64,000 bases of DNA from Chloroflexota bacterium (lineage in GTDB: Bacteria > Chloroflexota > Anaerolineae > Promineifilales > Promineifilaceae), in the NCBI GenBank assembly GCA_018004935.1, contig JAGNBF010000001.1, positions 1 through 64,000 of the forward strand, read 5' to 3'. A program made the translations under genes and the position numbers. The first letter of the stretch is position 1, and each line of letters opens with the position of its first letter. A model generated the notes under the pieces. The model did not search any database and was not told where the DNA came from. It saw nothing but the letters and a program-made list of their open reading frames with translations. Below, piece after piece: positions 5,225 through 14,415 of this stretch.

Positions 5225-5796
5225 ATGCTGGATGGCTGGAAAAAGGCGGTTTAGCTGTAACAACCCCCACCCCTAACCCCGCCCCCAGGGGCGGGGAACT
5301 TTTCTGGGCGCAGTTTTTCGGGGCATGCGCCCCGAAAAACTGCGCCGATGGGGTCTCCCTTTCCCCTGGGAAGGGGTAGAGGGATGGGTCTTCCGCCTGG
5401 CCCTTACCTAACATTGCCGAAGCGGTTGGCTGTAACAACCCCCATCCCCAGGGCCAGGGAACTTTTCTGGGCGCAGTTTTTCGGGGCATGCGCCCCGAAA
5501 AACTGCGCCGATGGGGTCTCCCCTTCCCCCTGGGAAGGGGTAGGGGGATGGGTCTTCCGCCTGGCCCTTACCTAATATTGCCGAAGCGGTTGGCTGTAAC
5601 AACCCCCATCCCCAGGGCCAGGGAACTTTTCTGGGCGGTCTCCTGCCGTACCACTTTCGATAAGCAGGTTATTTAATTTCCATTCGTCACTATACAGATG
5701 GGATACGGCTCTGCCTGAGCTTGTCGAAGGCAGAGCCGGGCTTCGATAAGCTCAGCCCTCGAGGGCGTATATAGTTACTCTCTTCCTAAATACCCA
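5225..5796. repeat. Near-tandem GC-rich hairpin repeats, then a TGAGCTTGTCGAAG repeat
   Basis: A unit beginning GGCTGTAACAACCCCCA starts near 5252, 5429 and 5591 (spacing about 177 and 163 bases). The first two units contain a perfect inverted repeat with 16-base arms (CGCAGTTTTTCGGGGC, spacer ATGC, then its complement) near 5298-5333 and 5472-5507. They end in a stretch resembling 'GGGATGGGTCTTCCGCCTGG'; the third unit is cut short near 5640. Related hairpins with different arms occur at 13310-13350, 20608-20642, 35735-35775 and 45260-45300. At about 5712-5768 is a separate inverted repeat, TGAGCTTGTCGAAG paired with CTTCGATAAGCTCA. Confidence 0.75.
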
Positions 5797-12847: not shown

Positions 12848-13129
12848 ACCTTCATCTCCTCATATTGAACTTGCCAGACAACCCCTTTTATAGCATAGTT
12901 TACCGTGACCGTGCATAAACGGCGCTACTGAAGCAAACGGGGTAAGGTTACTTTTACATATTCACCAAGACGATTTATTCCCGCAACAATCTACTCCTAC
13001 GAAAATGTAGGGCGATTTGGTAAATCGCCCAGTGGACGATTTACAAAATCGTCCTACAAATTTTCATCCCTCTTGGTGCGCCAAAGGCCCATGGGGAACT
13101 CCTACGAAAATGTAGGGCGATTTGGTAAA
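12848..13129. repeat. Gene-free stretch with AAATCGCCC hairpin repeats
   Basis: Two near-copies of a unit start at about 12991 and 13100: CTCCTACGAAAATGTAGGGC followed by GATTTGGTAAATCGCC, then GGACGATTTACAAAATCGTCC and TTTTCATCCCTCTTGGTGCG. The second copy is interrupted at 13130 by a mobile element and resumes at 13588. Other copies are at 45012, 49540 and 54490. No gene is seen. Confidence 0.7.
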
Positions 13130-13587
13130 GGGTGTGTTTCATTTCAGTTGAGAGGAAGAAAATAATGAATCAGTGAATCCGTGAATTGTTGAATGATTAA
13201 CCAGGAGAACCCACCTGGCGGGCAAAATCGGGGGTTTTTGTCGTTTAAAATTAATCAGGTAATGGAATCCCCCCCACCCCTAACCCCGCCCCCCGGGGCG
13301 GGGAACTTTTCTAAGGGGCATTTTTCGGGGCATTCGCCCCGAAAAATGCCCCATGGGAATTCCCCCCTTCCCTCGGGAATCGGCAGGGGGGATGGGGTCA
13401 ATGAAGGCGTTACCCGATTAAAAATTTAATGAACAAAAACCCCCAGTTTTGCCCGCCTTAAAAAAACTCCCCGCCCCTGGGGGCGGGGTTGGGGGTGGGG
13501 GAACGCCACGTAGGCAATCGCCCTAGAGCGTCTACCGCTTCATGAACAGTTCAACAGTTAGTTATTCAACTCATTTGAAACACACCC
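13130..13587. mobile_element. 458-bp non-autonomous element (MITE-like) with 9-bp target duplication
   Basis: The ends are GGGTGTGTTTCA and its exact complement TGAAACACACCC, extending imperfectly to about 22 bases. TTTGGTAAA lies immediately on both sides (13121-13129 and 13588-13596). Removing the element plus one TTTGGTAAA restores GGCGATTTGGTAAATCGCC, the uninterrupted form of the surrounding repeat. The interior holds the GC-rich hairpin module (GGGGCATTTTTCGGGGC and complement at about 13315-13352), flanked by inverted arms GGCGGGCAAAATCGGGGG/CCCCCAGTTTTGCCCGCC. No transposase is encoded. A second copy with its right end missing begins at 45068. Confidence 0.85.
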
Positions 13588-14094
13588 TTTGGTAAATCGC
13601 CCGGGCGATTTACCAAATCGCCCTACAAATTTTCATTCCATTTGGTGAGTGCCCGCTCATGGGGAACTCCGACAAAAATAAGCTGCGAGTGGCGAGTTTG
13701 CGAGTGAACGCTTACTCGCCCACTCGCTACTCGCTACTCGCATATTCACTATTTTCATCTATCCCTTCGGCAAGCTCAGAACAGGCTTGGTGTGCCACAA
13801 TTCGTAGTAGAGACGCAAAATTTTGCGTCTCTACTTTACCAAAGGGTATGTTGCCAATGAGTTGAATAACCGCAATTCTCAATTGGCCCCGATGGGTAGG
13901 GATGGGGTTGGCCTCATCCTCTCACTCTTGCCGCATCTCCTACCTGCCTTACCCGGGTATCAAACCAGACATTGGTGGGGCAGGCGAGCGAGGCAACCGG
14001 GAGAACAAGTTGGGGTGATTAGACAATATTTCCCCCCGTTGCCCTGCCCCTACGACTCTCAATTGAGAATTGCCGATTAAATAATTATACTGTT
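13588..14094. repeat. Continuation of repeat field: interrupted repeat, CTCGC repeat, 28-bp palindrome
   Basis: 13588-13660 completes the interrupted AAATCGCCC repeat. 13684-13741 is rich in GCGAGT/ACTCGC (for example CTGCGAGTGGCGAGTTTGCG), matching the 59700-59795 region. A perfect 28-base palindrome occupies 13807-13834 (arms GTAGAGACGCAAAA). 13868-14080 is bordered by CAATTCTCAATTG and CTCTCAATTGAGAATTG. No gene is supported. Confidence 0.6.
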
Positions 14095-14360
14095 CACGAT
14101 CAGTTATTGCGCTTTTGCGCTGTGGCTGGTCTCCTGACCGCGCCACCCAGGTTATTGTGGGACGATTACTTAGGATTGACGATTAAATAACTTGAACATT
14201 TGCTGTGGCTGGTTTCCTGACCGTGCCACTCCCAGCGAACAAGTTATTTAGTTCTCATTCCTTAGGATTGACGATTAAATAACTTGAACATTTGCTGTGG
14301 CCGGTCTCCTGACCGTGCCACTCCCAGCGAACAAGTTATTGAGTACTCATTCCTTAGTAG
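14095..14360. repeat. Tandem GGTCTCCTGACC-type palindromic repeats, 92-bp period
   Basis: A unit starting TTAGGATTGACGATTAAATA is at 14170 and again at 14262. Each contains AATAACTTGAACATTTGCTG, a GGT(C/T)TCCTGACC core and a closing AGCGAACAAGTTATT, so that the outer AATAACTTG and CAAGTTATT pair. A shorter copy is at about 14118-14155. Further copies are at 12222, 26455, 39043 and 41725, with reverse-orientation copies at 18297, 37612 and 38043. Confidence 0.7.
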
Positions 14361-14415
14361 TTACCAATTCTGACGTTATTCGCAAGCAACCACGACATGA
14401 GGATGGAGTCGAAAT

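Follow-up and report, generated by a model that had tools for sequence, protein, structure and literature searches.

An ISKra4-type MITE family at palindrome centres, and a second repeat nested within one of its members, in a Chloroflexota genome

A 458-bp insert in the window (the whole 64,000-nucleotide stretch of Chloroflexota DNA analyzed here) is a member of a large non-autonomous MITE family. We consider it highly probable (about 0.92) that the insert was moved in trans by a DDE transposase of the ISKra4 family (Mutator-like, p-MULT 4). The MITE family is new, whereas the IS family with which it belongs is already known. The insert is not a single unit but a MITE of ~257 bp that carries a separate repeat of ~200 bp in its hairpin. 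This nested repeat is the odd part of the find; the MITE is otherwise mostly ordinary.

The insert spans positions 13130-13587, starting with GGGTGTGTTTCA at 13130 and finishing with TGAAACACACCC at 13587, and is flanked by exact 9-bp repeats, TTTGGTAAA, at 13121-13129 and 13588-13596. An earlier note had described a 458-bp element with a 9-bp target duplication, and its ends, coordinates, and duplication all proved exact. When the flanks were joined through one TTTGGTAAA, the resulting 94-bp site (...TGTAGGGCGATTTGGTAAATCGCCCGGGCGATTTACCAAATCGCCCTACA...) gave 107 spanning matches in the sampled loci, with ~88-92% identity among the matches listed; this number is not a copy count, as some of the sampled loci overlap. 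Thus, the note was also right that removal of the element restores a host repeat, since the empty site matches a repeat common elsewhere in the genome. The insert is placed exactly at the centre of the host palindrome. Its longest ATG/GTG/TTG open reading frame encodes 78 amino acids and is composed of repeats, and an Rfam scan of positions 12900-14400 returned no match. The features of the region are as follows.

13115-13120, plus strand: left arm of the host palindrome, GGGCGA, which together with TTTGGTAAA and TCGCCC makes up the restored target
13121-13129, no strand assigned: left target site duplication, TTTGGTAAA, exact 9 bp
13130-13587, plus strand: 458-bp composite of an ISKra4-type MITE (A end first) and a nested element; 257/258-bp copies are free of the nested part (L063, L065)
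13130-13151, plus strand: terminal inverted repeat of the A end, GGGTGTGTTTCATTTCAGTTGA; the autonomous IS in L143 has an identical A end
13217-13234, plus strand: left arm of the internal hairpin of the MITE, GGCGGGCAAAATCGGGGG
13238-13436, plus strand: nested ~200-bp repeat, TTGTCG...GAACAA, a separate family in the MITE hairpin loop, missing from the 257/258-bp MITE copies
13440-13457, plus strand: right arm of the internal hairpin of the MITE, CCCCCAGTTTTGCCCGCC
13566-13587, minus strand: terminal inverted repeat of the B end, GGGTGTGTTTCAAATGAGTTGA; identical B ends occur in the autonomous ISs of L141, L142, and L143
13588-13596, no strand assigned: right target site duplication, TTTGGTAAA, exact 9 bp
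13597-13602, plus strand: right arm of the host palindrome, TCGCCC
13844-14058, minus strand: decayed representative, by alignment, of this MITE's 243-bp subfamily, with the B end intact and the A end lost; TTTACCAAA precedes it at 13835-13843

The composite structure of the insert and the decayed second copy of the family had been overlooked previously. Two MITE copies, of 257 bp (L063) and 258 bp (L065), can be aligned with the window element from one end to the other, apart from a segment of ~200 bp that they lack and that lies in the loop of the hairpin GGCGGGCAAAATCGGGGG...CCCCCGATTTTGCCCGCC. The whole composite may have transposed as a unit, rather than the MITE having received the ~200-bp repeat locally: a second nearly full-length composite (L002, C74:94937) carries the nested repeat at the same place and in the same orientation, and fragments with parts of both the MITE and the nested repeat occur at L003, L004, and L019. 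We regard this as rather unlikely. The window copy and L002 differ at 15 of 258 aligned sites in the outer part but at only 3 of 198 in the inner part, and the right junctions of their nested repeats are unlike (AAACCCCC in the window, CCCCCCCC in L002). Furthermore, the nested repeat occupies the same MITE hairpin in reverse orientation in L081, and a different MITE hairpin in L085; both cases point to repeated independent nesting. Because the inner parts are closer than the outer ones and nesting recurred in these two copies, we favour repeated local nesting, without regarding the question as settled.

The MITE is abundant in the source genome. Across the 7.98 Mb searched, the end motif GGGTGTGTTNC occurred 201 times, compared to 11 occurrences of a reversed-pattern control. 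Forty-four intact copies were read from loci around listed places of the end motif. They were 146-538 bp long, had 22-bp ends and no transposase gene, and fell into size classes of ~155 bp (the majority), 163-164 bp, 242-245 bp, 257-266 bp, and larger. Every copy read consisted of one A end (GGGTGTGTTTCATTTC) and one B end (GGGTGTGTTTCAAATGAG). The duplication was exactly 9 bp in 25 of the 44 copies and had at most one mismatch in 32, and exact duplications of 5-8 or 10-12 bp were found in none of the 44. Twenty-seven copies were located, in the same register, within the palindrome GGRCGA-TTTNNNAAA-TCGYCC. The host palindrome pattern, GGRCGATTTNNNAAATCGYCC, has 840 sites and comprises ~0.2% of the genome, whereas its reversed control was absent from the genome. 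Thirteen other duplications shared a preference for WTTGNCAAW and were near-palindromic, with a mean of 2.7 of 4 pairs against a background of 1.0.

The GGRCGATTTNNNAAATCGYCC palindromes resemble REP elements. They are found genome-wide (in the window, for example, at 13006-13030 and 13603-13627), are often paired ~21-24 bp apart, and form a periodic array of ~102 bp on C11:1928-2785. Two palindrome-rich tandem arrays also occur in the window, one of 2.2 copies of a 164-bp unit at 5283-5637 and the other of 2.1 copies of a 92-bp unit at 14165-14357.

The partner transposase was found in relatives. A 22-bp pattern covering both the A and B ends, GGGTGTGTTTCAWWTSRGTTGA, was present in 13 of the 98 genomes of a panel of relatives, with zero matches to the reversed control. 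In three relatives of the same taxonomic family (G028, G015, and G011), an A end faced a B end 1626-1724 bp away, delimiting elements of 1626, 1672, and 1724 bp with the same 22-bp terminal sequences. The G015 and G011 elements (1672 and 1724 bp) each encode a single protein, of 517 or 534 amino acids, and these proteins are ISKra4-family transposases according to the NCBIfam model NF033572 (292.9 and 285.1 bits, E 1e-84, with a curated cut-off of 205 bits). The 1626-bp element encodes a related protein with a divergent C-terminal part. More distant homologues were encoded in metagenome-assembled genomes of Anaerolineales/Anaerolineae, JADHTJ010000078.1 (50% identity) and JAUIAP010000041.1 (44%), in elements that share the outermost 12 bp on either side, GGGTGTGTTTCA...TGAAACACACCC, and have exact 9-bp duplications, ATATGATTT and ATTAAATTG, respectively. 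The two autonomous ISs nearest in sequence terminate at contig ends, where duplications are unreadable, and the flanks of the autonomous IS in G028 are unmatched (TTTGCTAAA/CTTGACAAT). The earlier note had proposed looking for a transposase gene bordered by the same ends, which these elements supply; it had also counted copies in relatives with other ends or without duplications as evidence against its reading, and the relatives keep the same ends, several copies having 9-bp duplications. The MITE and the autonomous IS have only the terminal ~22 bp in common, so these are end-only MITEs and not visible deletion derivatives. The end pattern was not matched in IMG/VR viral contigs.

G012, a relative of a different genus, had 59 exact matches to the end pattern, all of them B-like among the matches listed. 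It contains a 112-bp element flanked by AAATCAATT, and MITEs bearing this end pattern would have been amplified there separately.

In the window's own genome, neither HMM nor protein searches found an ISKra4 transposase at E ≤ 0.001. Copies of the ~155-bp class diverge from their consensus by 7% on average (range, 1.4-42%). The MITE certainly spread in the past; present activity, which had been claimed previously, was not demonstrated by the search of this genome. The lack of a detected transposase counts against present activity but not against membership in ISKra4. The assembly is a draft of 229 contigs, 96.57% complete, with several MITEs at the ends of contigs; a repeated IS may therefore be missing from it. 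The partner enzyme is presumably either absent from this genome now or unassembled.

A 1798-bp pair of A ends on C20 was considered as an autonomous IS and rejected, as it consists of two separate MITEs (one of 306 bp and another). Between two facing MITEs with their A ends outward at this locus (L091 1908-3705, G000:C20) lies a DNA adenine methylase-like gene (297 amino acids), and the pair could act as a composite transposon.

The contrast between ~200 ends and no detected ISKra4 transposase leaves room for a different enzyme, still encoded in this genome, that moves the MITEs, the likeness of their ends to those of the ISKra4 element being superficial; the searches of this genome were aimed at the ISKra4 and IS256/Mutator families. 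We consider this very unlikely, given that the 22 bp of both the A and the B end agree with those of the ISKra4 elements and are arranged alike, with the same duplication length, and that no IS256/Mutator (PF00872) transposase was found in this genome either. That the insert is no transposon at all but a recombined palindromic repeat with chance-matched ends, as the crowding of palindromes and nested repeats in the region might suggest, is refuted by the duplication statistics (exact 9-bp duplications at varied sites, with none exact at other lengths) and is further opposed by the excess of end motifs over the control and by the empty site present elsewhere.

From the ends, duplications, target preference, nesting, and partner ISs described above, we infer mobilization in trans by an ISKra4-family enzyme and the following order of events. 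The transposase would recognize two slightly different 22-bp ends, A (GGGTGTGTTTCATTTCRGTTGA) and B (GGGTGTGTTTCAAATGAGTTGA), and would insert the element at a staggered cut of 9 bp within an AT-rich, nearly palindromic target (WTTGNCAAW), which most frequently is the middle of the abundant GGRCGATTTNNNAAATCGYCC palindrome. Filling of the gaps would then yield the 9-bp duplication. Later, the unrelated ~200-bp repeat would have inserted in the hairpin loop of the ~257-bp MITE, bringing it to 458 bp.

The nested repeat at 13238-13436, TTGTCGTTTAAAA...TTTAATGAACAA, is a high-copy repeat in its own right. The earlier claim of at least two non-autonomous families therefore stands, with this repeat as the second family, although the reason originally given is not the one. 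Its end has ~128 matches in the genome with up to 2 mismatches and none in the 50 other genomes searched, relatives included. Many unrelated inverted repeats carry the repeat exactly at their centre (for example, in L008, L015, L027, L294, and L301). Among 40 copies read with both ends, 33 were flanked left and right by an identical base, X[TTG...CAA]X, and only 2 by an identical pair of bases. An inverted repeat with a stem score of at least 7 hosted 33 of the 40 copies (83%), as opposed to 7% in a control that paired the flanks of different copies. In L027 and L294, the copies lie in the known host palindrome (...GATTTGG[]GTAAATC...). When unfilled, this palindrome has exactly three bases separating TTT from AAA, so the extra base in these copies is a duplicated central base (1 bp). 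In the window copy the 1-bp duplication is not clean, with GGGGGTTT and AAACCCCC on its two sides. A search of 20 solo ends, with flanks to 3 kb, found no longer partner with both ends and gave only copies of ~165-207 bp and truncated or mosaic ones.

We know of no IS family with a target rule of palindrome centre and 1-bp duplication, and a literature search on 1-bp duplications gave no match. We offer this rule as a lead only. Speculatively, the repeat could belong to a mobile family whose members insert exactly in the centres of inverted repeats (hairpin tips) and duplicate the single central base, which would imply a recombinase that recognizes hairpin structure and not sequence; we think this quite unlikely to be correct. 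If the rule holds, such a target mechanism would be unusual and would merit biochemical study.

Our results connect a high-copy group of MITEs, from a Chloroflexi lineage that has received little study, with an identified enzyme family; in this genome, gene-less elements appear to have outlasted their own transposase. Two unrelated element families both target palindrome centres, and as a consequence they pile into each other.

The ISKra4 family (Guerillot et al. 2014, PMC3942029) is described as having inverted repeats of 18-39 bp with a conserved terminal C and direct repeats of 8 or 9 bp, and Chloroflexi are already among its reported hosts. The elements described here resemble it in their 22-bp inverted ends and 9-bp duplications, with ends of GGG.../...CCC and 9 bp in both the MITEs and two autonomous ISs, and the partner transposases exceed the NF033572 cut-off. 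In contrast to the members of this family, the window element carries no transposase gene. Part of the ISKra4 group inserts upstream of sigma-A promoters (PMC3942029), whereas the window MITE, compared by target sequence alone, favours palindrome centres of the form WTTGNCAAW. A literature search on MITEs together with ISKra4 returned passing mentions only. Among prokaryotic MITEs, QMITE2 of Coxiella (reviewed in PMC10969869) is similarly short, has inverted ends, 7-9-bp duplications, and no transposase gene, and is likewise intergenic, with an RNA-like fold, and a target for other elements. Unlike MITEs of this type, the window MITE is assigned to ISKra4, a family not mentioned in the text of that review. 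IS1111 inserts in the GTAG palindrome of QMITE2 (PMC10969869) and, like the nested repeat, thus recognizes a palindrome carried by another repeat. The ~200-bp repeat differs from the IS1111/QMITE2 pair in occupying many unrelated palindromes, at their centre, and usually with a 1-bp duplication.
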